NCBI RefSeq assembly: GCF_965363235.1
Contig: NC_134845.1
Location: forward strand, 68,973,261 to 69,037,260
Length of the DNA stretch: 64,000 nucleotides
Source: Mytilus galloprovincialis
Lineage: Eukaryota > Mollusca > Bivalvia > Mytilida > Mytilidae
Direction: 5' to 3'
Part shown: piece after piece, positions 9,790 through 64,000 of the stretch
How positions within the stretch are numbered: position 1 is the first letter of the stretch
Layout of the letters: the number at the start of each line of letters is the position of its first letter
Made by a program: the position numbers and the translations under genes
Notes under the pieces: model-generated
Seen by the model: only the letters and a program-made list of their open reading frames with translations
Database searches by the model: none
Told to the model about the DNA's origin: nothing

Positions 9790-10150
9790 ATTATAAGTCT
9801 GATACCTTTTTAAACCACTGGGTCGATGCCACTGTTGGTGGACGTTTCGTCCCCAAAGGTTACACCAGCCCGGTAGTTAACACTTCGGTGTTGTCATTAA
9901 TATCAATAATGTGGTCATTTTTATAAATTTCCTGTTTACAAAACTTTGAATTTTTCGACAAACTAAGGATTTTCTTATCCCAGGCATAGATTACCTTAGC
10001 CATTTTTGGCACAATTTTTTGGAATTTTGGATCCTCAATGCTCTTCAACTTGTTTGGCTTTATAAATATTTTGATATGATCGTCACTGATGAGTTTTAGG
10101 TAGACAAAACGCGCATCTGGCGTACTAAATTATAAGCCTGGTTCCTTTGA
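9790..10150 (+). repeat. Hammerhead-bearing short retroelement, single unit
   Basis: The unit begins actgggtcgatgcc and ends with a decayed hammerhead at 10080-10123, followed by ctaaattataagcctggt. The core ctgatgag is present, but the GAAA box reads caaaac, so self-cleavage is not expected. A headless, tail-less relative lies at about 58140-58320. The 5' block resembles that of the tandem dimer at 38580-39295, so both belong to one broad family. Confidence 0.7.
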
Positions 10151-10524
10151 TAACTATTTAAGGGGATACTAAACATTTATATGAGCTCTCAATAATGACG
10201 ATTTCAGTATATACACAAACGAGAATTAACCTGCAGAACTGAATTTAAATAAATTAAATACTAACAATGAACACTGCCCTTTCGTGGCTCTTAATATCCA
10301 TATCTTTCATGGGAAGCCTAATACCAAAATGTATGATAAAAGAGATGTTACTGAAAAATTATTACACCAGGGTTTTCGATATCACAAACTAGTCAAACCA
10401 TTTACCAACTGTTTTCATCGGTACAAGGACATCATTCGTAAATATACATTAACATGCATACATCATATACAGTGTACGTTCAGGTAGTTTACATCCCATA
10501 TTTCATGGTAATATTCTTTACAAA

Positions 10525-11125: not shown

Positions 11126-11173
11126 CTATGCCCGAACATTGTCGTTGATGCTAAGTCGGGATTTTGGACGGTC
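11126..11173 (-). CDS. Receptor terminal coding exon 21
   Basis: The acceptor (ccatgtag) precedes GACCGTCC. In phase 0 the exon encodes DRPKSRLSINDNVRA and a stop. The paralogous exon at 63854-63910 gives DRPKSRLSINDNSRAQAK. The TCC/TCA difference between copies is silent in this frame, which supports it over the alternative open frame (TVQNPDLASTT). A 3' UTR of about 220-330 nt follows. Confidence 0.8.
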   Translation of the reverse strand, partial: DRPKSRLSINDNVRA

Positions 11174-14100
11174 CTACATGGAAAAAATAGTATAATTTAT
11201 ACTTAAGTAGGAAAGAAAGTAAGCTGATCAATATAAATATAAATCGAACTGTTAGTTTTCTCGTTTGAATTGTTAAACATTTTTTATTTCGGTATCTTTC
11301 ACTATGCGGTTTGAGATTTTCTAATTATTGAAAGCCGTACGGTGTCCTATATTAAATAGTATGTGTTATTTAGTGTCTTGTGGAGGGTTGTCTCATCAGC
11401 AATCATACCACATCTTCTTATTGTTATATTATATTGTATTATTGAAATGGAATTCTCCCTAAAAAGTACTGATGAAAGTATAGCGATATTTTGCTTTTGA
11501 TATTGTCGGGGCTACGTATTTTAAAAACAAAATCACTAATACCTGTACTTGTTTTTGTAACGGAAAATATTACGAGCAAAATTTTGACTTTTAAAACAAT
11601 ACACAAGATTTCCAAATATTACAAAGTGTTCCATTCTTAAAACGGTGCAGTATATTTTTTTCTTTTCGATATCTGACAATATTGTTAAAAAAAATGAGCC
11701 GGGATACGCTTCCATGAGAGTTTATTTTACTATTACAAACAAATTATTGAAGCGTCAGCACAATGCTAACATGTAAATTGCAACGGCATCGAAATTAGAT
11801 CTAAATAAGTTCAAATAGGAATGAAAAAACCTATTTGCTGATTTGCAGTTATAAACACACTTTATGCAAATATCAAAATGCTGAAAACCTTATCAAGATT
11901 TTCTAAAGATTCAGATAGCATACACCACTATAACTACTACATACAATAGTTACTGTCCTCAACGTTAAATTTAAGTTTCCAGTTATACATCTATAAGTAT
12001 ATAAATGGTGAAAACCAGTTCACCATAGACAAAATCATTTTAATACAGATTATTATATTGCATCGCAAGTTAATTAACGATCGGCGGCGATTCCATCGAC
12101 TTTTGTGATTGAAAAAAAACCAGAGGAAGTGTCATTTTTTATAAATGAAGACAAATATATGGACCAAACAAAAAAGTTATTTTTACTTTAGAACTGTTGT
12201 ACCAATTAAAAGACATATATATTTAAACTGCGTAATAATAAACAGGCTTGTAAGCTGCTGTATATTAAGATATACAGAAGACTTGTATTCATGGAATAGT
12301 TATGATCCAGTTTGTTTTCACTGTTGTTAAATCTAATTTCTACATGTATATACTTACCAAATTACTAAAATCAGTAGAATGTTTCGAATCCATGCGATTT
12401 GCGTGTCGTCGTCTCTGATATTGTTGGTAGCCTTGTCTAACCTTTACATCAAAATTAGTTGCATGATTAGAAAAAATACACAACCAAGGCGACTGACAAT
12501 TTCAGAACATCTATCGATAAAATTTCAGATGTGTAATGCTTTATAATATATGATATTTATAATGATCATATCAAATAAGTTGAACACGACGTGTGTCGTA
12601 TATGGAGTAGAGAATGCTCATCCTCTATTACCCGATAGCATATGGTGCACCTGTGCTAGTTCATATTTTTGATATAATTGGTAAAGCAATACCAATTAAC
12701 TTAAAAGAGGAATCTTCCAGGTATTTGGCTAGCAGCGTGCATGAAGACGTAAATACTCCTTTAGAATGCGGTAAGATTAATTGGTCGTTTATAATGTTTA
12801 AACAAATTATGTTTTTAATTGTTATTGGAATTAAAAGATTCAGTCTGTAACGTACTTAACTACATATATGACTAAAAATAGTTTATGATAGCCATGGCTT
12901 GGTGTTATTTCATTCTAAAGTTAAGATACATACCTGTTTATTCAGGAAACAGTGGAACACACATATGAAAAGACCCTATAAAAAGGTTATTAAAAACTGT
13001 AGACTATATGTAACAAAATTATAATACAGCTATTTTACAATAAAACAGTTTCCTAACTCAACACGTGCAATGAATTATTTTATTCGTGTTTGTTGATATT
13101 GATACCAACATAAATCTCTTTATCATCTTAAAAGATTTTTTTTGCTGGTAATACACTGTTTGTTCTCATAAAACCTTATACTTGTCTTAGGCATTTAAAC
13201 AATAGAGGCGAGACCTGCGTTTTCCATAGTTTTGGTTTGTCACTCTAATTTGTATCAGAGAAATTCATTTGTGATTGTGGAACAGCAGTATACTGATATG
13301 TCAAATGTTTAAACTGTTGACAAGGTACTAATTGTAAGTTTTCGATAAAAAATCGATTTGTAGATGAATTGTTCACTTCATCAACATCTTGGAGGCCCCG
13401 ATATATGTCCGATATACACATGTATTTCAGCGCAGACGGTATTATACAGGTTTTGTTTCGTATTATGATTCCTGTAATTGAAGGTGACTTCTTACACAAA
13501 AGCTTTCAAGAAAAATATTTAACAACTTGCCATCACAAGTTTCTGATCACATTATATACATATATATTTCGCAGATAGCAAAGACACTGTTTGTATTGTT
13601 TTTTCCAAAATTTCGTTTTCTTCTCATCAAATGTGCAATTGTCATGAAACATCAAATTAGACTTATCACCAAATCCCATTTTGTAGCATTTTTCATCACT
13701 TCCAACTTTTGTTTGGTTCGTTTTTGTAATTCCGTAAGTTTTATTTCTTGAGTTTTGTTGACTGTTTGGTACGGAAGCGTATTAGCGCCACACATTTTTT
13801 TTTATTTTTCTTCTTATGTTTGCGTTATAACGCAAACCTTTGCGATATAACGCAAGGTTTGCGTTAAACCTTTTGCGTTATAACGCAAACCTTTGCGATA
13901 TAACGCAAACCTTATAACGCAAACATCTTTATTTCAATTATTCATTAAGTTTTGTATATATGTCCGTCTGTCATTCATTTCGGATGTGATTTACTAGTAG
14001 ATAAAAAAAGAAACATACATACAAGGCCAAATCATTATAATAAATATGCATAGGAATAATGGAATAATTGAAGTGCAATTATACATAAATTAAGACTGAT

Positions 14101-17100
14101 TTGTGCATCAGAAAAGTATATAATTTAACAAGAAAATAGATATAGTATATAGTCATATCAAAATTGAAAGATCAAAAATAATGTCATACAATTGTGAAAC
14201 CTCCAAGTCAAATAGACAAAATGATCTTTCTGCTTTAAAATGAATTATTAATAAGGAAACATTTTTTTTAAATCTCAGAATATGATCAAGATTCTTTGAT
14301 AGAAAGTCATTGAATTTTCATTTCAATATAATGAAGTATTTTTAAGATGCTTGGGTAACAATTTGAATAGAGAGAACATAATTTTATTAATAAAACATCT
14401 TCATTCTATACATTTATTGCCAAAGGGTAGCTTGTTTGAATGTAACCTACTTTACACAGTTGATTTTTTTCTTAGGTATAACCTCAATTTACTCAATTTT
14501 CTTTGTAATATATATACTAGTAGTAACTTGGATATCGTTTTTGGGGACCTTTATAGTTTGTTGTTTAGTGTGAGCCAATGCTCCGTGTTGAAGACCGTAA
14601 TTCGGCCTATGATGGTTTACTTTTACGAATAGTGACTTAGATGGAGAGTTTTCTTATTGGCACTCATACCACATCTTCTTATATTATTCTGCTCATTATT
14701 AGTCATTGATATGATCTAATTATTCAAGCAGTTTACTTTGCAATTACTGCAAAGGTGATCAATTTTATTATATCCAACCTCCTCCATTAAAAACTACTGT
14801 TTCCTTTGAATCTTAAATAAGAAATAAGATAAAACAAACCTTTGCGTTATAACGCAAAGGTTTGCGTTATATCGCAAAGGTTTGCGTTATAACGCAAACA
14901 TAGGAAGAAAAATAAAAAAAAAAAAAAAAAATGTGTGGCGCTAATACGCTTCCGTAGTTTGGTGTCTTTACATCGATTTTGCATTTTTATTACATTTCGT
15001 GTTCGACTTCTGGGTTTGAAATGTTTTTTTTTTATATAACGCCTCTCCATCAATTTATGATATAGAATAAATTAATCAATTTGATGTTTATAAACCTTCG
15101 AATATATTCTAATTGTAAAACATGAGATTCAAATTGTTTTAATTAAAATTATAGAAATTGGTTCTTATTTAGTTTATATGCATTTTACAGCGTGATCTAA
15201 AGTATTCAGTACCTGAAGCGAGTTGAAAATTGCAAATAGGTATTGGAAAATGACCAGATCATCATTCACAGAATAAGCTCCTAGTACCCACGTTACTCCA
15301 AACAACGGCAAGATGACACAGACACTTTTCAAGCCGATCCTATGAAAAGAGAGCATAAAGTTTTCATAAAATTTGTCAACTTTCTGCTATGGCTTTCAAA
15401 TATTTTCAGTACTGCTCAGATAATAGACTGGATGTATCTTTTAGAACTATGTATTGATTGATTAGTAGTTGTGATTTACCTGTAAGCTTTTTTCATAAAG
15501 TATTGTCTAAAAAGATAATAAACAGTTATATCGTAACTGCAGACTAATCGTACTAAATTTACCACCGGAAAAAGTCCGAACATTGACGGAAATACTAAAA
15601 ATGACTGAATAATATATTGTTCGGAAATTTAAGTCATCATTATATTGAAATGATCGTTTGAGAGGTTGAATAACCACTCATGCTGTATTATACTGATTCG
15701 ATATTATGATGATATCAACTTTAACGGTAATAAAAAATGCTTATAAGTTTACTTCCAATAACAAACTTACTTAGATTTCACTTTAAGTGTTTTTGCAGCC
15801 AACCCTCTACTAGTCATCATTTTATTTACCGTAATGATGATGATAATGAAATTAACCTGAAAAAATGCGATATTGAAGACGAAAATTGAAATTTTATTTG
15901 AGAAAACATAATTAACAAAAAAAAAAAGGTTTTCCTCCTGAGAATTTGATTTTAGTTTTTTTTGGTGCATAACTCATTGTTACTCAATCTTTAATTTTTC
16001 TGAATTGGTAATTTCGTTTTTTTTCGGCTTTTTGTGTTGTTTGTATGTTGTTGTAAATTTTTTTCTGTGATATTTGTTATTGCATACAAGCTATGTTCGT
16101 ATTTTTTTTAAAATGTGTTAAGAGTCATTTTGCAATTCGATAATGAAGTCGAACAGTTGTAACCAATCGTTATAATAAATAAATCAAAAAATGTCAAAAC
16201 GGAAGTTCAGTAACTGTTGAGCAATATTATCTAATGTCACATCTACAATTTATAAGTTTTCATGATATTCATGAACCTGTAATGTTATCGTATTGAAATA
16301 CATCCACACATACCAAAATAACAAGTAGCGCTGGTACAATGAAAGCCCAGATGAGGTAAGATTCAAGGGTTAACCAACAACTGCATTGATCAAAACAATC
16401 ATCATATGGATCATGATTGCATTTCTTTGTGTATTCTTCTATTATTTTACAAACTCTTAGAAAGGGGACACAGAAAAATGGATGAACGAAAGTGTTTCTG
16501 GTGTATGTAGGTGTAGTAAACGCTTCGAACGCATACAATTACTGTGTTTGATGGAAAATCACTGTTAATTGCAAGAATGCTAGTTTGTGGCTGAATTTGG
16601 TACAGAATGGTTTTTTTTTAGAACAATTTCTGATCTACAGTTTACTTAATATGGAATATTTATCAGTTGGATAGAATTGCACGAATTAATCAATATAAGA
16701 ATGTTATATCCATAAAAAAAAAACAGTAAAATCGACAGAAGTTGTTTACATTCAAAAAGAAACAAGAGCGGTTTTTATCCTTAATTTTACCTTTATTTAT
16801 CGTTGCTGACATACTCTAATTTGTCTAAGTAGATTCAAAGACCGGTAGCAGCGAGTATGGATAAGTATTTTGGTATGAGAAAAAAATCGGACATCAACCG
16901 TGCGAGTCGGAAATCTTGCGTTGCATATCGGTTAAATCGAAAATAGTTTCATAATTGTATATCCACATAGACATGTTGTCACCCATGGTATGCGATTAAT
17001 TTGCCACTGCACTCAAATCAGCAGTATGTGCACGTCATTTTCATCATCATATACTTATAACATTTTCTTATTTACAAATATTTTTGAAACATTATATATG

Positions 17101-20100
17101 CCAATTTTCTAGCATAGGACTTTGTATAAAGCACAAATTGATAAAAACCGATAAATACGTACAACTGTTCATTGCCATATCCCTTTAGTTTAGTCACTAC
17201 GGCAGAAATTCCAACTATACAAGCAGGTACAACTGGAATAAAATAACATCCCCTCGAATATAGTGAAACTTACTAACCATCTTTATAAGTTTGTTTACAC
17301 AGTAAAGATTTCAATCCGGATTGGGCAAAATAGTACACATCCGTTGCATTTACACCATTTTTATAAGGACTTCTGCGTGATTTGCGTCATGCTTTTTAAT
17401 TTTGATGTTTTAAAGCACCCCGTTTAGGTTTCCTGTTTTTTATGATTTTAATTTTGTTGTAATGATGCCTGTCATACACTGACTAAGAGCTAGGATATTT
17501 CTCTTGTAATAATAATAAAAAGATAAATAGATAAATGTATGCAATACACTTTTAGTACCTACAATGTTTATGAAATAGCAAAGTTCCATAGGACATAGCA
17601 AATGAGTCATCCATTTTTTTTGTTATTTATTTAATGAAAAAAAAAATAGTAATTGATTTGCTTATCTTATTTCCGGATCAGAAACAATTATAATTTTGGT
17701 AGATTTGCCATTTTAATTCGAAATGGATATGTAGATGGCTTCAATACTTACTCCAACATGCAGGTAACAGTTTATGAACTATAGATTTGGTTGGGAAAAC
17801 AATGATTACCATTCTAACTATCTGAATACCTTCAGCAAGCATCAGAGCAAAGTCTGTCAGGAAAATATAGTGCATAGCAACTGCGATTGCTGTGCATACT
17901 ACCTATAAATAAGATCATAAACAAAAGCATTACAAAATATCTACATGTACAATGTAATAATGTGGCCAATGTTTGAAGATAGAAAAGCAATACAATCGAC
18001 ATCTTCCTGTTCTTAATAACGTTTAAATTATCGGCATAATATATGTCGGAGTTTCCTCACGAGAAGTTGTTGCCAAACAGCCAGTGGAATGGTATTAGTA
18101 CATTCTATGTTTCGAATATGAGAAATTACTTAAAACTATTAAATATGAGCAAAAATGTGGTCACTATTTGGTAGTTGACAGATACGAACACTTATGATTA
18201 AAATATGTATTTGAATTAACAACTGTATTGACTAAGTCACTCGGGATGTTGAATTAAACCAGCTTTCTGTTCGAAGACTTCTGTCCGGCTTCGATTAATG
18301 ATTTTGAATATTAATTTGCGATGTTTTTCTGCAAGTTTCTGTGTTTGTTACATTTTAGTGTTGTGTCGTTGTTCTCCTCTTATATTTAATGCGTTTCCCT
18401 CGGTTTTAGTTTGTTACCCCGATTTTGTTTTTTGTCCATGGAATTATGAGTTTTGAACAGCGGTATACTACTGTTGCCTTTATTTCCTCTTTTTCAGTTT
18501 TGAATCACATGTATAACCAGTTATATATTATATGACTACTCTCCTAGTTTTCTTACTTTATTTTCTGTTCGTGTTATGCCTGCTAAGAATAGTATATACG
18601 ACAGAATTAATGCCACACATAAGTTCATCAATATTTTTGATCTATCATTTCCCAAGTACCTGTAAAACATTACCTGACAAATCAACTTTCAAATATTTAT
18701 TATATCTTTGAAAGTTTCTGCATTGTTATAAATGTAGCCCATACCACCTCATTACATTAGCTATATTTTGCAAAACCTTTTGGGATTATTTTTTCTCAAT
18801 GCTTGGCTTTATAAATATTTTGATATGAGCGTCACTGATGAGTCTTATGAAGACGAAACGCCCGTCTGGCCTACTAAATTATAACCCTGGTACCTTTGAT
18901 AACTCCTCTCAAACTTCATAATGTATTTTTTAAACTTGATTTTATTCTAGCGTCACTGGTAAGCCTTTTAAAGACAAAACACATGTCAAGTCTTCACATT
19001 TCAAACCTGATAACTTTGGTGAGTTTTGTTATGGAACATTATTTCGTTAAAAAAGAGAGGGATAATAGCACGGGGTTATATTTGAAAAATAAATGGTTAA
19101 ACATCATAAATCGTCCCAACAAAATTCCTTCAAAACAGAAAAAAAAAAAAAACAAGACAAAAATTGAGGAAACAAAGATATGTATGGAACATGGGATGAA
19201 GTTGTGTCATAACAATGTTAACAGGTTGTCATTTTTATACATATTTTCTTGTTTGCAGTATTTGGCATTTCATTAAACCATGATATAAAACGCATGTCCT
19301 GACATTTACAATTATAGTGGATCTCTCTGGTAAGTCATCTGTATCTTGTAAAGTAAAGGTATTAACAGACACTCACAATCAATATTCAGGGATATGGCAA
19401 TATATCATGTATATAAAGCTTATCTAAACGAAGCAGTGCTATCAATAATTGAATGGTTAATTCATAGATGAGTCTTTTTACACAAAATAGCATTCAATAA
19501 ACCTATATTGTACATACAATTTATAAAGTGTTATTTTCTGATTTCAAAGAGGAAAACACTGTTTGAGTTAGTATTGAAGTTGCTGCCTTTTTTGTTTTAG
19601 ACAAGAAGAATAAACTATTTTTTTCATCTTAGGTGTTGTTTTTCTTGTAGATGGAATAAGGCTACGTATACCTAAAACACTTTTTTTTCTAATTTAGAAG
19701 TGCACTGATCTGATCAAAATCATATTAAGTGATTGTAATATAAAGAGAGAGATATCTTTCTATTATCACAGTGATCGATTACTTAAAAATATTTTTTTAA
19801 ATTTAAATTATCAAGTTTAAAGTCCGAGCCTCGGCTACGACTTAAAAATTTATAATTTAACTATTGAGATTGGATAAATCCGATAACCCACGAGTAACTA
19901 TGTAAGAATCTGTTTCTCTAATGATTAAAAAAAATATTTTCTTTTTTTGTTATCCGAAAATCCCCTTCGATATAAAAACAAAGATGTGGTATGATTGCCA
20001 GTGAGACAACTGTCCACAAGAGACCAAAATGACACAGACATTAACAACTATAAGTCACCGCACGGCCTTCAACAATGAGCATAGTCCATATCGCATAGTC

Positions 20101-23100
20101 AGCTATAAAAGGCCCCGATATGACAATGTAAAACAATTCAAACTAACGGTCTTATTTATATAAAAGAATGAACGAAAAACAAATATGTCGAGCTCCTTTC
20201 ACATTCCACGAAGTTGTCAATTTCATTAACACCTGTTAGCATATTTTGATTCATTCAGTTTGCTAAAAAGGTTATGACCCTTAAAATCATCCAATGATCT
20301 TTTGAGATCACCGACAACTACACGTTGATTAAACTTTTGAATACAATGGGTTCGGAAAGGGATAAATTTCCATTCATGCATGTACGAAACCTATTTATAA
20401 CGATTCTACCCCACATGCGAGTCCATACGACGTTATTGAGCTTCAAAAGCATATCTAGCATAGCTACATTGAAATATGCGCAAAAGAAGTGTCCCTTTCA
20501 AAGAACGCCGTAACGTTTCGATTCCCAAAACGTGTCTACATCAAGCTTAAACGGCTCTTTGTGATGAACGGTCAATATTGTTTGATAATTTAAATGTACA
20601 TTATTTCTTACCTTAGATAACAAATAACATGTTGACCAATATTAAATGAGTAATGTTGTTAAATAACAAATTTGAATATTGCTCTTTCATTGACTTATAC
20701 TCGTTTTGCTCTTTCGTCTATAGTTCTAATCGAAATGTAACTGGAGAATAGAAATATGGTTAATATTTTCTTTTATATTTCAAATGTATACATTATGTTT
20801 GGCATTGGATTACAAATGACAAGTTTTACAATCTTAAATATGTAATCTTGTTAAATAACAAGTTTGGATATTGCTCTTTCATTGACTTATACTCGTTTTG
20901 CTCTTTCGTCTATGGTTCTAATGGAACTGTGACTGGAGGATAGAAATATGGTCAAATAGATCTTCTCCTGACGGACAGTAAAACCTTTGCGGAATCGGCG
21001 CGTTTATTTGGCTACGCGGGATGTAGAAGTACGCAGCCACGTCAGGTCTGAATGGGCATAGTTATTCCATAACCTTGCATTACCTTGTATATACATGTAC
21101 GTAAATATAGAGTCTTTAATATAGACCTATCTCTTGCGTATATTGTTAACTTGTTCTCGTCATGCATACGCATATAGTATTTGCCACTGGACGTTAAGCA
21201 ATCAATCAATCAATCAATTTATTGTCTTAAATAGACACGATAGAATTGCTACTAACTTGAAGCAAGCAACTATCAGTCAACTTCTAATTTTCTATTAATT
21301 AATAGGATGTTGCACATTCCTCTCCCGGGGTCACACCGCAGATATTGATTTGCAGAAAAATTAAAGAATATATTATGAAAAGTGTGAGAAGCCAAGACAA
21401 TATTATAAAAGGAATTTTTTGGTGTATAAACTCGACCAATTCACTCACAAACAAACAAAAGTCCAACAGGACTTTTATGATATGTTTGTGAGTGACTTGG
21501 TACAGTTTATACACCAATAAAATGCGTTTGATCCTTATAATTCTTTAAAATTGGAGATAAGGAAAATATTTTTCCGCAATCGTTACTTCTATCTCGCGTA
21601 AATTGTTTATTTGTGTCATTGAAAAGTCATGGCGCATGAATTTAACTGTTGACTTACGCAAAAATATGTACTCCAGGAAGTAAGCAAACTGATAAAAGAA
21701 TAAACTACCGAATCTGTTTTCATTCAAACGAATATTTTTGTTTTTGTTATTCAATGTAACGATTAACGTGCAGTGAAATGAATTTTGTTAAAGTCGGTGT
21801 TAATATCGCTGCCATCTTGTTTACATTGGTTACGAAAAGAAGTTCGGTCAACGTCGTCTATAGAAAAATAACCTACCTCAAGATCAACTACCAGAAGTTC
21901 TCTCGACCAATCCTATCAACGTATTCCCTAACATGCAAATCATATGGTGTTGTTGCTGTTGGTGGTAGTTTTGGAAGGCGACTTACTTATATAGTAATTG
22001 CGCCTTAAATTCATATAACATAAATATTATGTATATATACTTTCAGTCCTTATTTTATTTTTAGTATTACGGTTTGGCAAGTAATTATATGAAAAATCAT
22101 ATAAGAATTATAAAAGGTTAACTAGTTTGAGCATTCTTGTTATTTAACATTTTCGATTGACTGTCGGGGAACACAGGAAATTGAAGGATTCAATCAAGAT
22201 GTAACTGGTACAAAGACAACAACTTTACATCTAACAAAAATGTGCAAACTACAATTTGTGTATTACAATTGTGTTCATCGTGTTCATGATAAAAATCTTC
22301 AATAATTTATTATTCATAATGGATAAATATTATTAATTGATTAATTGTAAATATAAAGTTTTTATTGGCAATGTAGCATTACTATGAAAGTAAGAAAAAC
22401 ATGTTGAAATCAACAAGAATTCCCCTGTCAACTCGGGCTAGAATGTATAGTTCCAACAGAGGTATGACGTATAATTCGTTTCAAGAATATGCATCATATA
22501 GATTAATTCCAACAGAAAGCATAGTCATAAAAGAAATCAAAGCATCTGCAAAAAAAAAAAGTATTGGGCAAATAATTGATATTCTAATAACTACAATTTT
22601 TTTTAATTTTAGATATGAAAAATTCAGTCACAATGTTTTATTATATTTCAACTTAATCCGTATAATCACATATACAGATGATCGTGTGTATCAATGGAGC
22701 CTCCCGGGCCTTTGATAAATGAAACTAAACTTTTAGTCAGCACTCCAGTCATTATTACAGATAAAACCAAGCCAGCTGATATGAAAACAACACTCAGTAC
22801 ATATCCTGTATTATCAGCTTCTAAAGTACAAATAAAATAATACAAAATGATAAACAAAAATAAAGTAATGGTTAACATATTTATCATTGTCGAATTATAT
22901 GAGTGCCTTTCCTAATTTGGAGTCTGTATTACAGTGATTGTCGTTGGTTGATGTTTGCAATATGTATCTTATTTGTTTACTCTCTTTGGTCGTTTGTTGC
23001 TGTTTGCAATATGTGTTATTTGTTTTCTTTCGTTGGCGTAAATCAGGCTGTTCGTTTTCAATGTCATACTGTGTTGATATTCCTGTAGCTGTTAACTTAT

Positions 23101-29100: not shown

Positions 29101-32100
29101 TTTTCAGATAAAAGTTGCCGTTTTATATCAATTTGTAGTAAATAGCTCACCAAAGAGTGTATTGTTACATTCCAATGCTATTGCATTGTTATTACGCTGT
29201 ATTTAATTCAATGGGGATCAAATATCAGTCCCTTAAAAGAGGGACGAAAGAGACCAAAGGGACAGTCAAACTCATAAATCTAAAACAAACTGACAACGTC
29301 ATGGCTACAAATGAAAAAGACAAATAAAAAACAGCACGCATGATACAACATAGAAAACTAAAGAATAAACAACACGAACCCCCCAAAAAAACTAGGGGTG
29401 ATCTCAGGTGCTCCGGAAGGGTAAGCAGATCCTGCCCCACATGTGACAACCGTTGTGTTGCTTATATGATAGTCAAATTCGGTAGGTCACATTCATGAAA
29501 GGGAAGGGGATTTTTGTTACGACGTAAGGAACATATCCGATATCATTTGTGAAACAGTTATTCCATAACGGTCAACCAACTCATGATGGCGTCCGTAAAT
29601 TTTACGAAGGGATGATTTCAACTTTACCATTTGGAACTCTTGGTTTAATAGCTTCCTTGTGAGCAGCAACCCTCTATCAAAAATATCATGATAGGAAATG
29701 CAAGCACGGGAATATCGTATGAATTGGGGGAAATATACCCCGTATGCAGGTGCTGCTGGAATGACATAACAATCATATTTGAGTTATTTGCATTTATTTT
29801 CCATATTTTGTATTTTATTTTGCTTTTATATCTGTTTTGATTGGAGAATCAATGATGTCTCGTGTAGAAGGACGCGGGTCTGGTGTGTCAAATTTGATTG
29901 ACTGACTGATTGATTGTTGGTTGCTTTACTCCGCATAAGCACAAAAAGGCTATATCGCGGCGAGAGCTAATTCGAATATTTTTTACAATTCAAAGCATAT
30001 TTTAAAATAAGACAAAAGAACCTTCATTAAACTAAATCTCTAGACTAAATCAAGTGATTATTTACAAATAAAAATCAACAGTAAGATAACATGATAAAAA
30101 TTAAAATATTTTATAATAAATTCCAATTTCTTTTAAGAATGCAATACTATTTGTAAATGGAACATTATTAAATATATATATTATTGACATTTAAATGATT
30201 CCTACGAATATCAGCAAAGTCAATACAATTAATGAAAAACATGTTTTATAGTATTCTTGCAGTTACAAGGTATACATCGTGGTTCTACTTCATTCTTTAA
30301 AAGATATTCGTGCGTTTCCCGTTATTCTAGTATGACCAAAACGACATCTAGAAATAACACACTGATCTTTTCTGCACATAAAACTATTGAAGGTTTACCT
30401 AAATTAGGTTTAATTTCATGTAATTTATTATCATCTATTTTACTCCATTCATTTGTCAATATATTAAAAACATATTCTCTAATATTAGATTTAAAATCAG
30501 TATATGGTATATCACAGTTAGATAGAGGGTCAAATTTGAATCCAGGTATCTATGGTGAATGTTTGTCAATGTATGAACTTACCCAATGTTGTTCACAGCA
30601 GTATAACAAAATATATGACTTCCGCCTTGAGATGAAGACGGTGTCCATGTTACATTCACATACCACTCCATTCCTGATGACCCGTAGGGTAAAATTCCAG
30701 TTTTAATCATTCCAATGGGTGATACTGTTACAATTTCTGTAATGCTGAAAAAGGTAACCGCTTTTACGAAGAGCTTAATGTTAATCAGGCAAGGCATGAA
30801 AACATGGAAAAGGTGTCGGAGAATTTAACTTAACAATGTGTAACCATTTTATTAAAATGTCATGTACCAAGTCAGAAAAATGGCAATAGTTTATATTATA
30901 GTTTCGTCGTGTGTTACATTTTAATGTTGTTTCTGTTGTGTCGTAGTTTTCCTCTTATATTTGATGTTTTTCCTCAGTTTTAGTTTGTAAATCGGATTTG
31001 TTTTTTTCTAAATCGATTTATGAATTTCGAACATCGGTATACTACTTTTGCCTTTATTTAGGTACAACAATAACTAAATGGTTACTATCATATCACTCCA
31101 TCACAATTAGGAGGATTTATGTGATCAAGCTTGTAAAATCACATTGTAACATTGTAGATGTACTGTAAACTCAGATAAACTTTTTTTTTTATAATGTAGT
31201 TTAACTTTTTTATCTATTAAATTTTATGTGTATACATTAGTTAAAGATTTCCAACAACAATTTCATAACTGAATACTGTGGATCTATAATTTTTCCTGGG
31301 GGATCATTTTCCGTGGGTTGAGGAAAACTTGCGTTTTCGTGGGTTTTTGATTTCGTGGTTTTGCCAATCTTTGCATACAAAACCCAAAGAAAACTGTTAA
31401 TCGTTGAACATTTGAATTCGTGGTTCACATGTACCCACGAAACCACAAAAAATGGTATCTAAGTAATAATAATGAACCCACAGTGGAGAATTTTTACAGT
31501 TAGAATTAAAAATGTTATACAAGATAGATATCAGAATGAGAATATACCAATTTAAAGATTCCTACATCTAATACAATGTAGCTCATTTGATGTTTTTATA
31601 AAGTTTTACATGTTCCTCGCGAATCATGAAACGTTCCATTTATTTAAATAATGGAATGGCGTGAAAGTAGAATATTGCATAATATTTTTGGTGGTCATTT
31701 ACAAACAATACTGAACTACTTGTCCTTTGAATGAGTAATTAACCTGGATATTTACCTAACATTAGTCGATCCACTATTAGCCACAATAGTCTGAAAGAAG
31801 GTTGTGTTTAGTGCTATGGGAGCTACCGAACCATTTAAATTAGAAAGATTCAATTGCAAAACTAGGGGTTTATCATCGCATGAACCCGTTGTTGAAGATA
31901 TGTCGACCAAAAACTGTAGCGGAACACTGCTTAACGGTGTCGCAGTGTCGGAAACAGAATAATCTTCTATCTGCAGTGCAACAGCATGCCAACCAGTACT
32001 CCCCGAGGCAGTGTAGGATAATACACATGAAGTCTAAAAATGATTAATACATTCGAAATTAGTAAAAATCATATCTAGTAAAAAGATTTCCTGAATTTTT

Positions 32101-35100
32101 AAGAATTATCAAAGTGCAACATACAACACAGCGTGTCTCCCAATTATCTCACTCAATAATTTATGAAGTTATTGCTTCAATCGAAGAACACGTCTCTCAT
32201 GTCTTTCTGTGTTGACATGAATAAGCATTGATATGGTCATACTCATAAATTAACTGTCGACGAAACTTTGAATTACTAAATCCTTTTTGCCAAATAGATT
32301 ACCTTAGATGTTTTTGACAAAATTTTAGGACCTTTTGGTCCTCAATTTTTTTTTGAACAAGTCAACTTCGTACTATATTTTGCTTTTTTAACCTCTGTTT
32401 TATTCGATCTTCACTGATGAGTCTTGTGTGAGGAAATACGCGTCTGTCAAAATTACTAAATTTTAAACTTGATATCTATGATTAGTTTATTTTTACTAAA
32501 AGTGATCAATACTATTTCAGAGGATTATTGTTCTGCTTTTTTAGGTGGATATCATACATGTCATAGTCATCGTGTAGGTGAAAAAGATAAAATGAGACTA
32601 CACAAAACGTGTTTTCTTTAGTTTGATGCGGTGAGCATGATTTGCTAATATAATTTTTTTTTTGAGTTCTTGTTGCAAAACACACCATGCGTTGATAGTT
32701 ATTGAACGTGTGACACATTATGGATAATAATATAACATGTCATCTATATATTACTAAGAATATGCATAACAAATAAAATGCATAACTTGCCTCGTTTAAA
32801 ATTGCTCCTGGAAAAGCTTCACAGACACTATAACATTCATTACTCTGTGAATAATTCATGTTATTCATGCTATTAGCCCAACGACATTTAACAATGTCTC
32901 CATCATCGTCTTGCACTGCAGGAAAGCATTATTTTATTTAAATTCAAAGACCAAAAAAAAAAAATGACAGGTATACCATTTCTATTTAAATGAAAAAGTA
33001 AACTAATAGAAATATCGAACACATTTGAAGACTCCTTGTTTAATGGGAAGAAAAAAAAAAAACCAAAAGTTCAAACACATAAAAAATTTAAACACAACTG
33101 CTTTTTTGTAGACTTCGTGCAAGCATTTCCTTATTAGGAAAATGGTTGATTAAACATGTTTTTATATCTAACAAAACCTCTTACTTGTATTACTTTCGTG
33201 TATAATTTTATTATATGGAAAAATGTATGAGCAAAACAAATACACACAATAAGAAAAACTTGTCAAATATTTGAGTACAGCAGTCAACATTGTGTTATAG
33301 TCTTAATCACTATAAAACAAAAAGTCGACAAAGAAAAACAAAAAGGAAAGAGTATGCTATTTGTTAAACATTCAATAATTGAGGTAAATAAATACCCAAT
33401 GAAGGCAACAGTAGTATACCGCTGTGCAAAATGAATAATTTTTTTTGTGACAAACAAAACTAATGCAATCTGATTTATATCAATAAAGCTTAAATTTTGA
33501 TTAAAATCGAAAATTTATCTAAATTTTCGAAGAAAAAAAAACGAACATCAAGGTAAATTTAAAAAGAGGAACTCCTCTCTCCTTAAAAACTATTTTCATT
33601 GACGACTCATGTTTACAAAAAGGACATTTAGATTACCTGGTATTGTAAGTGAATAAGAACATCCATACTTAAAGCGAACAATTGGTTGCATTGCAGAAAT
33701 AGGTGATGTGTTGATTTTGCCAGTATCGTTCCTAATAGAGAGATTCGCAGTAACAAGCAGTATCCAACTACTATCTCTGCCAACTACAAGAGTACTTATC
33801 CAACAACAGCTACTGTATCTGCAAATATATATTAATCTATAGATAAACAAACGAACAATTTATAGTTTTATTAAGATTTTTGATCGATTTATGTCATCTC
33901 ACATTGCTACCTTGCAATATTTGCAAAACTCACAAGGGCGATTTGAGGGTAGAAATATAGTCGTTGTATGTCTCCCTCCGACTGGAAGTAAACTATTTTC
34001 CGAAATATGTGACGTCTGTTAAACACGATTTCTTTCTAAATTATTATCCTCTATTAGTATTATATCAGCAATCAAAGAAAGGCGTCAAATATATTGTGAA
34101 GCTGCATATTCTAGAGGTGGCGTGAATCAAATGTGGATACCTAAAAATTCAAAAGATCTTTTAGAGTACATACAATCTAACTCCCTTTCATCTTGTAATA
34201 GTATTAAAACATTGGACTTTTCTACACTTTACACAAGTATTCCACATTCCAAACTAAAAGACAAGTTGAAAGAGTTTGTATTGCTTTATTTCATGAAAAA
34301 GAATGGCCAACGTAGATACAAGAAAGGAATTAATTCTATTTTGTAAAGGATCACTCTGATTAAAAAAAAATAATCTCTGAAACTGACATTTTCAAGATGC
34401 TTGATCTTTTGATTGACAACATATTTGTTAAATTTGGAGGACGTGTTTTTCAACAGACTATCGGCATTCCAATTGAAACAAATTGTGCACCTCTTCTTTC
34501 CGACTTGTTTCTTTATTATTATGAGGCTGACTTCATACAGGAACTTCTTCGGAAGAAATATAAGAAGTTATCAATATCCTTTAACTCTAATTTCCGCTAT
34601 ATAGATGATGTTCTTGCACTGAATAATTCAAAATTTGGTGACTATGTGGAACGCATCTATCTCATTGAACTATTGATAAAGAATACAACAGATACAATTA
34701 AGTCGGCCTCATATCTTGACTTATATCTAGAAATTGACAATGAGGGTCGGTTGAAAACAAAACTTTACGACAAAAGAGATGAGTTCAGCTTTCCAATTGT
34801 AAACTTTCCATTTCTAAGTAGCAAATTTCCAGCAGCAGCTGCATACGGTGTATATATCTCCTAATTGATACGATATTCCCGTGCTGGCATTTCCTATAAT
34901 GATTTTATTGGTAGAGGGTTTTTGCTCACAAGGACGCTATCAAATCAAGAGTTCCAAATGGTGAAGTTCAAATAATTACTTCGTAATTGTTACGGACGCC
35001 ATCACGAGTTGGTTGACTTTTATGGAGTAACCGTTTCACAAATGATATCGGATATGTTTCTTACGTCGTTACTACAATCCCTTCCCTTTCATGAATGTGA

Positions 35101-38100
35101 CTTACCGAATTAAACTATTTACGGGATTTGTTATCACATAAGCAACACGACTGGTGCAACATGTGGAGCAGGATCTGCTTACCCTTCCGGAGCACCGGAT
35201 ATCACCCCTAGTTTTTGGTTGGGTTCGTGTTGTCTATTTTTAGTTTTCTGTGTAGTGTCATGTGTACTATTGTTTGTCTGTATGTTTTTTTTTCATTTTA
35301 TAGCCATGGCGTTGTCAGTGTATTTTAGATTTACGAGTTTGACTGGCCCTCTCGTATCTTTCATCCCTCTCTGTATCTCCCTCATGCAAAGCTCTGATTC
35401 CTTTCACGGATTTGGCTATACTTTTTGGACTATAGCTCTTCATCTTTTATATAAGCTTTGGATTTTACATATTTTAGCCACGAGCATCACTGAAGAGACA
35501 TGTATTGCCGAAATGCGCATCTGGTGCAGAAAAATTGGTACCGTTAATGTTATTAAATATGAAAATGTGTTTTTTCCTGATTTTTCTTGCTCCAATAGTA
35601 TTGAAGTGGACACTATTTGATGCGGATTTTATATTCATGTATATTAGTTGACCCTTCAACCTGATATTTTTCTCTATACTTTTATATACTAGTTTTGACA
35701 CTACTTTCATATTTGTTATAAGTATCATTCCACTGTTTAATTTGAACAGATTGATGAATTAAAACTATGACTTAAAGGAATTGTATTGAGATATATTCAT
35801 TAAGGACTTTACTTTGTGTTGATCGCTTATGTTTTAAGAACCAAAGTGTGTTATACATACACCTTCATATTAGAAGGACATCCCATACAATTATTTTTTT
35901 CAAGAATTAAGAATTAGCAATAACTTACCCCGCAAGATACCGTATGCAATGCCTGCCCCAAGTCAGAAGCCTGTAATTCAGCGCTAGTCATTTGTTGATG
36001 TGTTACATATGTGTTTTTCTTTCATGTTTTTTTTACATTAATTATGACGTTAGTTTTCTCTTTTGCATTGTTTTACAATTGTCATTTCGGAGCCTTATAC
36101 AGCTGAATATGTTGTATGGGCTTTTCTCGTTGTTGAAGGCCGCACGGTAACCTACAGTTGTTAATTTCCGTGTCACTACAAAACACTCTTATTTGCAATC
36201 ACACCATATCTTCTTTTATGCATATCTATAATGCATATACGAATTTTTAATTAGATGAATAGACAAACAGACTAATCTTCGCCATTGTAGGGTTTTGTAA
36301 CGAACGAAATGTCATCGTAATTTAAGTAATGAAGTTTAACAAAAGAACTCGATTTGATCAACGTTAGTTTTTGTTTATTTAAATTATATTGTTCAAAATA
36401 ATGAACCTAATACCTAATATATGATTTTCAACAATTAGATGTATTAGGTGAAACAATGCAGTCATATTTCACCTTAAGTGAGTTAGATACATGCAGACCT
36501 TGAACTGGTATAAGTACGAATACACTTGTGTATTATAATGAGAGACGCCTTTATATCGAAATACAGATATGAACAATAGAATAAGTATTGATATGAAAAT
36601 GAATACGAAACAATTCAAAAAATGTTCTTTTAGAATGTGCAAGTGATTTGTCCTTTTAATATTATTAAACCAGTTTATTGTGTCCATCAATAATACAATT
36701 TATAATGATCTTACATTAAACAGAAAGAGCACCGACTTAGGTATAATTATGTAGCAGAAAAGATGTATTTATGAATTAAAAATTGTGTTAACGTGATCGT
36801 GAAAAAATCATTTTTGTTTTTTTGCCTTCATTTGTCATTTGTAAGTATTCGATTTCGTTTGTACTGAAAAATTAGTAAGATCATAGTTAAAAAAGGGAAT
36901 TAACAGTTTACTTTCATTCATTAGAAAACAATTTACCCGAGCTGAAATATGTTGTCCGACGTTGGAACAGTATAATATATGCTCCGTTGACCAGCTGACC
37001 AGTTCTCATCTACGCTATAATCAGTGCAGTAGTAAGACATAGGGTTAACTATAGATCCACTACATCCATGATAGCAAGCCAAAACTCCTTCTCCATTCAA
37101 TATGTCTCCATTTATAATGTTGCTGTCATTACACATGTGACTTCTGGAATAATCTCTACGGAATGCTAATCTGTATGATATTTCTATTTCCTAGATTGAA
37201 AATAAGTATAGATCATTTCATTTAATATCATGTTCAAAATAATTGCATGTTGCATACGTCATATTTTTCTACCTTTGTTAAATCTTCTACGATTCTTGTT
37301 TTTATGCTTACTAGCAACATATTATAATTATTTGCGCAGGTAGAAAAAGAACATGCGAGTTTAGGAACAAATTAAGTTAACTGAAAAGCCTAAACATTAT
37401 CTGTTTTAAACTTTGCCCTTCTTAGGCATGTAAGGCTTTATAATTATTTTGTTCTCAACGTCACTGGTGAGTCTTATGGATATAAAACGCGTGTCTGGTG
37501 TATTGAAATATAAGCATGGTACCTTTCATAATTATAGTATCTAGAACGCTGTTTGATGGTCACAATATTTTTTCCTGTTTTGTTTTATTTCTTAACAGAC
37601 GAACTAAATAAGTTTAATATTTATAAGCTATATTTTTGAATTCCTTATAGTCCAAACAAACATTTAATGGTTTAACTTATTTACAGACGTTATATCAATG
37701 GCATATTCACTAGCATTTGATAATATCAGATTTCATTTGTATACAGTTTTGTTTTGACAACCAGATAAATCTTTATTTTTGGTGGAATGCAAACCTAGAA
37801 TTAAAAAAGCATCAAGTGAATCATTTTATGCATTGAATAATATGGTTTATGATTGGTCTTAAATTGATATCAAAATATTGCCGACGTTTTCTTAAATGTA
37901 AGGATTGATATAGTTGCATCTGTTTATAACAAATATTGAATCCTTTGGGGAGTAATAGTCGTATTAAAAGGGAAACAACGATGCCGGATTGTTTAGTTAC
38001 ATGTACGAAAATGCGATATATTTTCAATCACATCATTATAAAAAGTATAAGAAATTTTACCTTAGTTCCCGACTGTTTCCATGTTATTATTCCTCCTCTG

Positions 38101-38183
38101 AAATGACTAGATTGAATTTCAAGAACCACAAAGCAAAATACAAGAAAAACATTTAAACAAGTGTTAATTAGAAATTTCTTCAT
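11126..38183 (-). CDS. EGF-repeat adhesion-type GPCR lacking a GAIN domain (21 exons)
   Basis: A complete receptor gene assembled from 21 exons with agreeing splice phases. The coding length is 2667 nt (888 residues plus stop), divisible by three. Order: signal peptide (1 to about 24), HFRGG module and following cysteine-rich ectodomain (about 27-388), five EGF modules (389-578), seven helices (about 584-840), and a short tail ending NDNVRA. The helices have adhesion-GPCR hallmarks: HYIFLTDFALMLAEG in helix 3, a CW pair in the second extracellular loop, FGVTWVLG in helix 6 and FQYLFAIFNSLQ in helix 7. The EGF-to-helix-1 gap is one intron joined in phase, so no GAIN/GPS autoproteolysis domain fits. 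The ligand is unknown; the role is presumed cell-surface recognition. Introns carry a foldback element, a Penelope-like element and hammerhead repeats. The 5' UTR and promoter are not resolved. Exon calls are by eye without transcript support. Confidence 0.88.
11230..11425 (+). repeat. Mussel interspersed repeat in a receptor intron
   Basis: Copy with gaaagccgtacggtgtccta and ggagggttgtctcat, lying between exons 20 and 21 in antisense orientation. Confidence 0.65.
12358..22820 (-). CDS. Receptor seven-helix region, exons 13-20
   Basis: Exons: 22676-22820 (helix 1), 18557-18659 (helix 2), 17752-17902 (helix 3), 17163-17232 (helix 4), 16314-16380 (second extracellular loop and helix 5), 15771-15856, 15213-15339 (helices 6-7), 12358-12492 (end of helix 7 and tail start, KVRQGYQQYQRRRHANR). 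Helix 2 reads SKILMNLCVALILSYILFLA. The Cys of VVCTAIAVAMHY and the Cys of CWLTLE form the expected disulfide pair. The helix 1 exon reads into a stop if its intron is retained, ending DTHDHLYM, which would give a single-pass protein. Its donor (atcatct|gtatat) is weak, so both outcomes are conceivable. The helix 1-2 loop, rich in Gly, is longer than usual. Confidence 0.85.
13770..14956. mobile_element. Foldback-type DNA element with tandem palindromes in its arms
   Basis: The ends are tacggaagcgtattagcgcc and its exact complement, giving long terminal inverted repeats (about 13770-13930 and 14835-14956). The flanks on both sides read gtttgg (13764-13769 and 14957-14962), a plausible 6-bp target-site duplication. 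The arms contain several copies of the 18-bp perfect palindrome tttgcgttataacgcaaa. The interior has no transposase and includes a mussel interspersed repeat at 14530-14685. It sits in the intron between exons 19 and 20 of the receptor. The superfamily is not determined. Confidence 0.8.
18300..18490 (+). repeat. Interspersed repeat (agtgttgtgtcgttgttctc family)
   Basis: Shared with 30895-31065: gtgtcgt ... cctcttatattt ... ttttagtttgt ... ggtatactactgttgccttt. A short inverted piece lies at 33395-33430. Intronic here. Confidence 0.7.
18829..18872 (+). ncRNA. Hammerhead ribozyme motif in a receptor intron
   Basis: Core ctgatgag, stem II gtct/agac with loop tatga, then gaaac and cleavage triplet gtc (cleavage after 18866). 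Stem I pairs gcgtca with tggcct with one mismatch. Stem III is only three pairs with a 2-nt loop. It is preceded by ttggctttataaatattttg, the conserved element tail. A decayed second copy follows at about 18950-19000. Confidence 0.75.
19980..20180 (-). repeat. Mussel interspersed repeat, inverted copy
   Basis: agatgtggtatgattgccag ... gacaactgtccacaagagac ... ccgcacggccttcaacaatg is the complement of the family's 3' end. It shows fairly low divergence from the consensus implied by the other copies. Confidence 0.8.
20640..20950 (+). repeat. Tandem duplication abutting a SINE
   Basis: Two copies about 185 bp apart (20655-20760 and 20840-20950) share attgctctttcattgactta, tactcgttttgctctttcgt and gatagaaatatggt. 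The second runs straight into the SINE body at about 20925. Confidence 0.75.
20925..21225 (+). mobile_element. SINE, partial
   Basis: It contains gatagaaatatggtcaaa, gcgggatgta and cagccacgtca. After an internal deletion it has cttgttctcgtc and gccactggacgttaagcaat, with a (caat)n tail. The full-length relative is at 60892-61322. I believe this 3' domain belongs to a SINE superfamily known from many molluscs; I cannot confirm the name. Confidence 0.7.
23551..23594 (+). ncRNA. Hammerhead ribozyme motif, intact core
   Basis: gcgtca / ctgatgag / stem II gtct-catgt-agac / gaaac / gcgcgtc / tggcgt. All conserved core residues are present (CUGAUGA and GAAA). Stem I pairs over six positions including two G-U pairs. 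Stem III has three pairs with a two-base loop. The predicted cleavage is after C23588. It is part of an element tail (ataaatattttgatatgag ... ctaaattataatcctggta), antisense inside the intron just 3' of the EGF5 exon. Confidence 0.85.
23680..27485 (-). CDS. Receptor EGF modules, exons 8-12
   Basis: Exons: 27378-27485, 26172-26285, 25745-25858, 24674-24787, 23680-23799. Each encodes one complete six-cysteine EGF module and is phase 1 at both ends, so the modules can be duplicated or skipped without a frameshift. Modules 1-4 share the pattern FCDGVxCENNGxCVDGV (module 1: LCDGVICENEGTCVGGL) and end SHTGxHCES. Module 5 differs most (FCKLKDLPCHNGGTCVDG ... CVT). Only module 5 keeps an intact GGTC loop typical of Notch-like EGFs. 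I see no calcium-binding consensus with confidence, although DIDFC and EIDFC at module starts are suggestive. Confidence 0.92.
23863..23904 (-). ncRNA. Hammerhead motif of the second family, opposite strand
   Basis: The minus strand reads gcgttt, ctgatgaaggtaaatcca, gaaaagcgc, ttt, gtacgc. The core CUGAUGA and GAAA are intact. The cleavage triplet is UUU instead of UUC, an allowed NUH site. Stem I has one mismatch. It is the same family as the dimer at 38580-39295, oriented with the receptor gene and 64 bp upstream of the EGF5 exon acceptor. Confidence 0.7.
28227..38183 (-). CDS. Receptor ectodomain, exons 1-7
   Basis: Exons (high to low): 38061-38183, 36937-37190, 33637-33818, 32791-32915, 31756-32033, 30583-30744, 28227-28267. 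The start Met is followed by a hydrophobic stretch (FLINTCLNVFLVFCFVVL) and then SSHFRGGIITWK. Further on are GCCWISTLV-like sequence (seen as SSCCWISTLV), DDDGDIVKCRWA, a cysteine loop (NECYSVCEAFPG), SYTASGSTGWHAVALQIEDY and TPLSSVPLQFLV. I recall the same ordered motifs in uncharacterised secreted or membrane proteins of other invertebrates, but I know no named domain for them. Exon 4 ends in AG|gcaagt, a GC-AG intron. All other introns are GT-AG. N-glycosylation sequons are frequent, as expected outside the cell. Confidence 0.85.
29225..29690 (-). mobile_element. Penelope-like element, 3' fragment
   Basis: The reverse complement matches 34890-35370. Both carry ccgtaaattttacg-like and atcggatatgttccttacgt blocks, the ctaggggtgatctcaggtgc region and gagggacgaaagagaccaaa. 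Only the untranslated 3' part is present. A shorter piece is at 57597-57770. Confidence 0.75.
30895..31065 (+). repeat. Interspersed repeat, second copy
   Basis: Same family as 18300-18490 (cctcttatatttgatg ... cggtatactacttttgcctt). It lies between receptor exons 5 and 6. Confidence 0.65.
32345..32475 (+). repeat. Decayed hammerhead-element tail
   Basis: ctgatgagtcttgtgtgagg aligns with the hammerhead tail, but stem II and the GAAA box no longer fit. Other decayed tails are at 29855-29895 and 37430-37510 (ctggtgag replaces ctgatgag). Confidence 0.55.
34034..35560 (+). mobile_element. Penelope-like element with 3' hammerhead, 5'-truncated and broken
   Basis: It encodes pieces of a reverse transcriptase: MWIPKNSKDLLEYIQS, KTLDFSTLYTSIPHSKLK, then GRVFQQTIGIPIETNCAP, FRYIDDVLALNN, SYLDLYLEIDNEGRL and YGVYIS. 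The RT fingers and palm motifs (including the YIDD box) are recognisable, but the frame is interrupted and the 5' half of the element is missing. It ends with an untranslated tail and a hammerhead. It is inserted antisense in the receptor's second intron. Confidence 0.85.
35484..35527 (+). ncRNA. Hammerhead motif at the 3' end of the Penelope-like element
   Basis: Stem I gcatca/tggtgc pairs over six positions (one G-U). The core ctgaaga is a permitted variant (position 7 is free). GAAA is present. Stem III is aug/cau-type with three pairs and loop cg. Stem II gaca/tgcc has one A-C mismatch. Cleavage is predicted after C35521. Hammerheads in Penelope-like elements are an established association. 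Confidence 0.75.
35935..36215 (+). repeat. Mussel interspersed repeat
   Basis: It contains cctgccccaagtcagaag, gaaggccgcacggtaaccta and caccatatcttctttta. Intron 2 of the receptor, antisense. Confidence 0.75.
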
Positions 38184-43170: not shown

Positions 43171-43179
43171 TGACCGAAA

Positions 43180-49395: not shown

Positions 49396-49439
49396 GGTTG
49401 TTTATTATCGCAATATTGAACTGTTCTGATGCAAATATT

Positions 49440-50175: not shown

Positions 50176-50177
50176 AG

Positions 50178-50184
50178 TATAAAT
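50178..50184 (+). promoter_or_regulatory. TATA-like box before the BEN gene
   Basis: tataaat directly abuts the first possible ATG (50185). Transcription starting about 30 bp downstream would bypass that ATG and favour the in-frame Met at 50221. Confidence 0.4.
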
Positions 50185-63335: not shown

Positions 63336-63636
63336 TTATATATATATAAAACATATTCGTCGTTTGTAAATGATACCATTTTAGATGTAGATTTTTCAAA
63401 CCTTTAATTTGACAGATAGTTACAGTCGATTTCGAACTCTCAAAATCACAGTTAAGCAATATTTCTAGAAATAGACCAAATAGAAAGTCTGAAAAGCTAC
63501 TGAAATGAATGCAAGATGATTGTATAAACAAAACTAAATTTACCACATGAAATACATTTGAAAATTGATTGAAAGATAAAAAGACAAAGCATATATAAAT
63601 CAAACTTTAAAGATATGATCAACATCCATACTATAA

Positions 63637-63642
63637 TTTATT
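63637..63642 (-). terminator. Polyadenylation signal of the paralogous receptor gene
   Basis: AATAAA on the minus strand at the place corresponding to 10906-10911 of the first gene. Confidence 0.55.
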
Positions 63643-63853
63643 TTATAGTGGATTCAATCTTTATTTCAAACAAGTAAATTAAATAATTGTTAAATACTAA
63701 AGCTATCAACTACTTTTGAAACTTTTTAAGTACAAGTTCAATCTTTAATTTTGTATAACATATTCGAATTCGTCATGCAAATAAACTGAATTGGTTCACT
63801 AAGAATCAAATATAAAATATTTGACTGCTCAATTGGCCGGTATATTCTCTCAT

Positions 63854-63910
63854 TTATTTCGCTTGTGCCCGGCTATTGTCGTTGATGCTAAGTCGTGATT
63901 TTGGACGGTC
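63854..63910 (-). CDS. Terminal exon of a paralogous receptor gene (partial)
   Basis: The acceptor ctatatag is followed by codons for DRPKSRLSINDNSRAQAK and a stop. The exon and about 320 bp of 3' UTR (63535-63853) align with exon 21 and the 3' UTR of the complete receptor, by eye at around 75-80%. The rest of the gene must lie past 64000 in the same orientation. Only the tail exon is visible, so nothing can be said about its ectodomain. Confidence 0.75.
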   Translation of the reverse strand, partial: DRPKSRLSINDNSRAQAK

Positions 63911-64000
63911 CTATATAGAAAAAAATATTAGGAAAGGAACAATGTATACTTTATACTTTTGTGCAGATAGAAAACTCTACTTATCATTAAAAATATAAAT

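Follow-up and report, generated by a model that had tools for sequence, protein, structure and literature searches.

How would an adhesion G protein-coupled receptor (GPCR) work if its extracellular modules were spliced straight onto its membrane helices? In the usual account, adhesion GPCRs act by means of a GAIN domain and a tethered agonist. The question is raised by a receptor gene on the minus strand of a 64,000-nucleotide stretch of Mytilus galloprovincialis DNA (contig NC_134845.1; the whole stretch is called the window). The gene runs from 38183 to 11126. With a probability of roughly two in three, it encodes a single-chain receptor composed of a signal peptide, a Sib-like domain, an unnamed ectodomain region, five EGF modules, a latrophilin-like seven-helix core and a cytoplasmic tail. 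The order of these parts can be read directly from the exons; we infer that one transcript holds them all.

Gene structure and seven-helix core

The gene was rebuilt by reading the three minus-strand frames across every candidate exon. Its 22 exons join in phase to 887 residues plus stop, with the start codon at 38183 and the stop at 11126. All 21 introns are in phase; 20 of them are GT-AG and one is GC-AG (donor of exon 4, gcaagt). The end points, strand and in-phase joins agree with those of the initial annotation, whose 21 exons and 888 residues are replaced by the present counts. The parts of the gene are as follows.

Exon 1: 38061..38183, minus strand; start codon, signal peptide-like sequence and SSHFRGG motif
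Exon 2: 36937..37190, minus strand; SIBA-E_N-like domain (Pfam PF24907 across residues 31–146)
Exon 3: 33637..33818, minus strand; end of the SIBA-E_N-like domain and start of the unnamed region
Exon 4: 32791..32915, minus strand; DDDGDIVKCRWA; followed by the GC donor
Exon 5: 31756..32033, minus strand; GWHAVALQIEDY; unnamed ectodomain, no Pfam family above cut-off
Exon 6: 30583..30744, minus strand; unnamed ectodomain
Exon 7: 28227..28267, minus strand; 41 nucleotides, end of the unnamed ectodomain
Exon 8: 27378..27485, minus strand; EGF module 1
Exon 9: 26172..26285, minus strand; EGF module 2
Exon 10: 25745..25858, minus strand; EGF module 3
Exon 11: 24674..24787, minus strand; EGF module 4
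Exon 12: 23680..23799, minus strand; EGF module 5
Intron between EGF module 5 and exon 13: 22821..23679, minus strand; 859 nucleotides, GAIN/GPS not found (Pfam in three frames; GPS patterns)
Exon 13: 22670..22820, minus strand; putative transmembrane helix 1, weak donor, in-frame stop directly after
Exon 14: 18557..18659, minus strand; helix 2
Exon 15: 17752..17902, minus strand; helix 3
Exon 16: 17163..17232, minus strand; helix 4
Exon 17: 16314..16380, minus strand; extracellular loop 2 and start of helix 5
Exon 18: 15771..15856, minus strand; remainder of helix 5 and intracellular loop 3
Exon 19: 15213..15339, minus strand; helix 6 and start of helix 7
Exon 20: 12934..12975, minus strand; helix 7
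Exon 21: 12358..12441, minus strand; cytoplasmic tail
Exon 22: 11126..11173, minus strand; end of the tail and stop, conserved in a tandem copy

When the best donors and acceptors were picked without regard to phase, 19 of the 21 joins kept the frame, whereas chance at 1/3 would give 7 (p = 8e-8); the splice matrices used are approximate, and the exon cores were chosen by the analyst. The two misses are the EGF4–EGF5 and the helix 2–helix 3 joins. These picks coincide with the final donor at 20 joins and with the final acceptor at 14; four of the seven deviating acceptors fall inside exons of the final model. A first model (22 exons, 913 residues) was dropped on account of poor edges at helices 4 and 5 in splice-site scoring. 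They were replaced by alternative sites, which reproduced the loop lengths of ADGRL2 and ADGRL3 and raised the whole-chain score of the Pfam family 7tm_2 (PF00002) by 27 bits, from 127.6 to 155. For helix 5, two acceptors have higher splice scores than the one at 16380 (score 3.8), which was selected for loop length.

The 155 bits of the 887-residue chain compare with a cut-off of 20.6 and cover profile positions 32–250, which leaves helix 1 uncovered; the seven-helix part alone scores 158–159 bits. The best solved relatives over helices 2–7 are ADGRL2 (E = 1.5e-46), ADGRL3 (6.5e-46) and ADGRD1 (8.9e-43). The seven-helix part also matches the solved structures of ADGRE5 (5.2e-37) and ADGRE1 (4e-35). 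Among the 20 solved chains at E up to 1e-20, the first 18 are ADGR receptors and the last two are CRF receptor 1. Judged by these alignments, helices 2–7 are clearly of class B and latrophilin-like, and the core appears closer to adhesion (class B2) than to secretin receptors, as ranked by matches to solved chains and not by a tree. The 7tm_2 and ADGR matches thus support the class B2-type core proposed earlier.

The alignment with ADGRL2 contains two single-residue gaps ahead of helix 5. The cysteines of helix 3 and loop 2 and the Trp of helix 6 are in common with the ADGRL2 and ADGRL3 alignments, and the LQG of helix 7 with that of ADGRL3. The helix 6 Trp and helix 7 LQG, as found in ADGRL3, suggest that the core is still able to signal. 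The cytoplasmic tail comprises 43 residues.

The ectodomain and the search for GAIN

Residues 31–146 match SIBA-E_N, a domain of the Dictyostelium Sib (similar to integrin beta) adhesion proteins. Against a cut-off of 28.1, the score is 31.6 bits for residues 24–186 alone and 29.1 bits for the ectodomain; when residues 24–186 are exactly reversed, no match appears up to E = 10. The initial annotation had described the ectodomain as lacking a family name, which does not hold for this first domain and remains true of the remainder: about 240 ectodomain residues beyond the Sib-like domain fall in no named family. Residues 187–389 give two insignificant Pfam matches only (TIL and Big_9, E near 0.8). 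The ectodomain matches no solved structure at E up to 10 and no NCBIfam entry up to E = 1, and a literature search with the HFRGG string gave only papers on other subjects.

Pfam identifies five EGF modules in the final protein, so that the ectodomain is large and multidomain (SIBA-E_N plus five EGF). The EGF exons are spliced phase 1 to phase 1. In the region of modules 1–4 (27562–24554, minus strand) one pair is 84.9% identical over 1088 nucleotides including introns and the other pairs are 78–91% identical. By this measure, modules 1–4 are recent tandem duplicates of exon plus intron, and module 5 is distant. EGF exons 2–4 differ pairwise at 6–12 positions per 114 nucleotides, half or more of them third positions (3+3+6, 2+2+4, 1+1+4); this excess fits coding constraint, with differences too few for a test.

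EGF module 5 is joined to exon 13 phase 1 to phase 1, as described before, across an intron of 859 nucleotides (23679–22821; about 860 bp in the initial annotation). From the last cysteine of EGF module 5 to the serine of the GLVLS motif in helix 1 there are 23 residues. Neither the first nor the final protein has a Pfam match to GAIN, GPS or HRM. Three of the 21 introns were searched against Pfam in three frames. The intron ahead of exon 13 yields no GAIN, GPS or HRM and one insignificant match (Orf78, E 0.011). The EGF4–EGF5 and exon 13–14 introns, the latter in open stretches of at least 15 residues, yield no GAIN, GPS or HRM and one insignificant match (Vp20_capsid, E 0.012). On these results, the idea that either intron flanking exon 13 conceals a GAIN domain was rejected. 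GPS-like patterns were sought in six frames across the whole window; the single match lies out of frame inside the exon of EGF module 1.

It is highly improbable that a GAIN domain is nevertheless present, with its exons missed or lost in an assembly gap. GAIN sequences are described as poorly conserved in passages of PMC11697300, draft assemblies can lose exons, and missed exons are raised as a possibility for sponge receptors in part of PMC4302439. However, the 859-nucleotide intron is too short for the ~300 residues of a GAIN domain, which argues against one between EGF module 5 and exon 13. The three-frame results for this intron and for the exon 13–14 intron point the same way, as does the position of the only GPS-like pattern. 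The absence of GAIN and GPS between EGF module 5 and helix 1 is thus borne out in the protein and the introns searched. Since no GAIN was found, the chain should not self-cleave and should be without a GPS-derived tethered agonist; use of the usual tethered agonist, which the initial annotation had placed out of reach, is accordingly judged unlikely.

Exon 13 as candidate helix 1

The joint between ectodomain and core depends on exon 13, which probably encodes helix 1. Both of its phases fit the neighboring exons of EGF module 5 and helix 2. Between these two exons, no other transmembrane exon of phase 2 has a donor scoring above zero. A relaxed scan of the same interval gave 16 transmembrane-exon candidates, 14 of which are versions of exon 13 and two the helix 2 exon. 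Another exon as helix 1 was rejected, as the scan offered none that is usable. Exon 13 carries GLVLS where helix 1 of ADGRL3 has GILLS. Its left-out codon score (0.35 bits per codon) is the highest outside the duplicated EGF modules 1–4, on a weak measure that is negative for 5 of the 22 exons. With the scores of exon 13 as thresholds, seven transmembrane candidates running from phase 1 to phase 2 are retained across both strands of the window. One of them is a shortened exon 13; the full exon is not included, its acceptor lying at the 3.9 threshold. A chance candidate within 5 kb is therefore not impossible.

Several observations weigh against the proposed single chain, most of them at exon 13. 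The exon is not recognized by 7tm_2, alone or within the chain, and the solved receptors with printed alignments match from exon 14 on, with exon 13 unaligned. By a crude score against helix 1 sequences it is outside the top 15 of its strand. Its donor is the weakest of the gene in the generic matrix (1.9, with −2.3 for the alternative at 22676; the other 20 donors score 3.5–10.6). When the matrix is derived from the first model's other 20 junctions, the acceptor ranks third lowest of 21 (3.1) and the donor at 22676 lowest of 21 (−1.7). An in-frame stop follows directly 3' of the donor. From the helix 1 serine to the glycine of GNDR there are 33 residues, compared with 18 in ADGRL3; the stretch between helices 1 and 2 has 15 extra residues with the chosen donor and 13 with the donor at 22676. 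Deletion of 16 residues extends the 7tm_2 match back into helix 1, but the score drops from 158 to 156. In the core, the His of helix 2 and the Trp of helix 3, common to the ADGRL2 and ADGRL3 alignments, are both Leu; their loss may alter the switching of the core. Furthermore, the SIBA-E_N match is borderline, with scores below the 28.1 cut-off in the whole chains of the first (26.7) and final (26.8) models.

The weak donor and the indifference of 7tm_2 to exon 13 would be expected if the exon, either always (with two genes) or as an isoform, ended a type I adhesion protein that crosses the membrane once (Sib-like domain, five EGF modules, one helix and a short tail ending in HDHLYM), the seven-helix part being a separate product. 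Read-through of exon 13 reaches a TGA at once and gives a 22-residue tail, KSLVSFIKGPGGSIDTHDHLYM, and an AATAAA is present at 22642. This hexamer means little, as AATAAA or ATTAAA occurs at 3.9 per kb on the minus strand. A separate seven-helix gene would be without helix 1, and in 23679–18660 the helix 2 exon is the only other transmembrane exon found to end in phase 2. The phase of the exon 13 donor, moreover, fits the helix 2 acceptor. A single-pass product with a separate core is accordingly considered unlikely, with some weight left to it.

The sequence upstream of exon 13 would allow a different start. In-frame ATGs at 22887 and 22878, in the polypyrimidine stretch, read signal peptide-like (MINMLTITLFLFIILYYFICTLEA), and no stop interrupts the frame between 22911 and the end of exon 13. 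The seven-helix receptor could thus begin alone at either ATG, without the large ectodomain. However, a T-rich acceptor tract reads hydrophobic anyway, the EGF gene would need a different end, and the donor of EGF module 5 scores high (8.7) and fits exon 13 in its phase. We regard this independent start as very unlikely. Shorter products are possible in view of the ATGs upstream and the stop downstream of the exon. Most likely, exon 13 is the first helix of the single-chain receptor.

Tandem copy, mode of action and known systems

The last exon of the gene has a counterpart at the other end of the window.

Tandem paralogue, last exon and 3' untranslated region: 63542..63924, minus strand; 77% identity over 392 nucleotides, the rest, if present, lying outside the window

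The acceptor is kept in this copy and the coding part has few changes; the frame runs three codons longer than exon 22 (NDNSRAQAK). The terminal exon 22 is further supported by this conservation.

The window contains several other elements. A ~100-nucleotide dispersed repeat occurs in four copies on the minus strand (10053–10158, 18803–18904, 23525–23626 and 37434–37531), with 80–93% identity in the pairs listed; three of the four copies are in introns of the receptor gene. Open frames with a Tc1-type transposase (48250–49401, minus strand, 383 residues; DDE_3 and HTH_Tnp_Tc3_2) and a BEN domain (50152–51432, plus strand, 426 residues) are present, as are a MULE transposase domain (53881–54630, minus strand) and a ubiquitin-like single-exon frame of 87 residues (60441–60704, plus strand, 1.6e-20). 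A 308-residue frame at 43174–44100 on the plus strand contains a GIY-YIG domain, and the frames upstream of it at 41–42 kb look reverse transcriptase-like by eye; together they perhaps form a Penelope-like element. A frame at 34364–34864 similar to the GIY-YIG frame has no Pfam match.

The most likely mode of signaling can be proposed as follows. The Sib-like domain would bind a surface or particle ligand, and the EGF modules would serve as a stalk. Binding or pull would then be transmitted directly to the helices via the short linker after EGF module 5. As a single uncleaved chain, the receptor might be activated reversibly instead of in one shot. A receptor with a long adhesive ectodomain whose EGF modules are joined straight to the helices would provide a natural test of whether an ectodomain is able to influence the helices without cleavage or a hidden agonist.

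A bolder and decidedly unlikely proposal combines the parts differently. A Sib-type ectodomain, as in an amoebal integrin-like receptor, would be coupled to a GAIN-less latrophilin-type GPCR, and the tandem-duplicated gene would make single-pass and seven-helix forms, switched by splicing at exon 13. If true, the choice between read-through of exon 13 and its join to exon 14 would turn an adhesion protein into a receptor.

The likeness of the single-chain receptor to known systems differs from part to part. ADGRL2, ADGRL3 and ADGRD1 resemble it as the best solved relatives over helices 2–7. Compared to ADGRL2 and ADGRL3, the receptor has no GAIN, GPS or HRM in the searches above and a longer first intracellular loop. 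Latrophilins carry lectin and olfactomedin domains in their ectodomain, whereas a Sib-like and EGF ectodomain is found here. The EGF-TM7 receptors (ADGRE family, with CD97/ADGRE5) likewise combine a class B2 core with EGF modules in tandem. Members of the ADGRE family are described as carrying EGF plus GAIN in passages of PMC12922695; in the mussel gene model EGF module 5 is joined directly to the helices, and the GAIN that in EGF-TM7 receptors lies between EGF modules and helices was not found.

Class B2 receptors without GAIN or without GPS are in print. Human ADGRA1 (GPR123) is given as a class B2 receptor without GAIN in parts of PMC11697300 and PMC12922695, and GAIN is reported in 84 ADGRA1 homologues from 47 species (PMC11697300, in part). 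Among sponge Adhesion receptors, 12 of 40 are without GPS, some perhaps as incomplete models, and some of these have short N-termini, perhaps for the same reason (passages of PMC4302439). The mussel receptor resembles them in class and differs from the short sponge receptors in its large multidomain ectodomain. Lack of GAIN is accordingly no novelty in itself, and the uniqueness implied by the initial annotation is not supported.

New N-terminal combinations are likewise known. Several N-terminal domains new to the family are described for amphioxus adhesion receptors (PMC2246102, in part). Two unclassified sea squirt Adhesion models have EGF repeats, apart from 21 with only GPS (PMC2396169, in part), and octopus is reported to have an expanded set of adhesion receptors, recognized by GPS and/or seven-transmembrane domain (PMC6408891, in part). 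Among the papers listed by full-text term searches of one open library on bivalve, mollusc or GAIN-less adhesion receptors, none was seen to describe a GPCR with a Sib-like domain; this is a weak negative, from searches in which Sib and GPCR were never combined as a term. Relatives in viral and prokaryotic contig collections, where little is expected, were not confirmed.

Dictyostelium SibA–SibE share the N-terminal SIBA-E_N match with the receptor. SibA is most likely the main adhesion receptor of Dictyostelium; it is single-pass and contains a VWA domain together with two NPxY motifs, and talin A is bound by its tail (parts of PMC9197732 and PMC12686525). In contrast, the mussel protein has a seven-helix core, no Pfam VWA match up to E = 1 and no NPxY in its 887 residues or in the exon 13 read-through tail. 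Since VWA, NPxY and the single glycine-rich helix of Sib proteins are missing, it is not a Sib protein and has one domain in common with this family. If an animal GPCR does carry a Sib-type domain, this would tie the amoebal adhesion toolkit to animal signaling receptors. What is unusual about the receptor is that its helices directly follow a long ectodomain of Sib-like and EGF parts.

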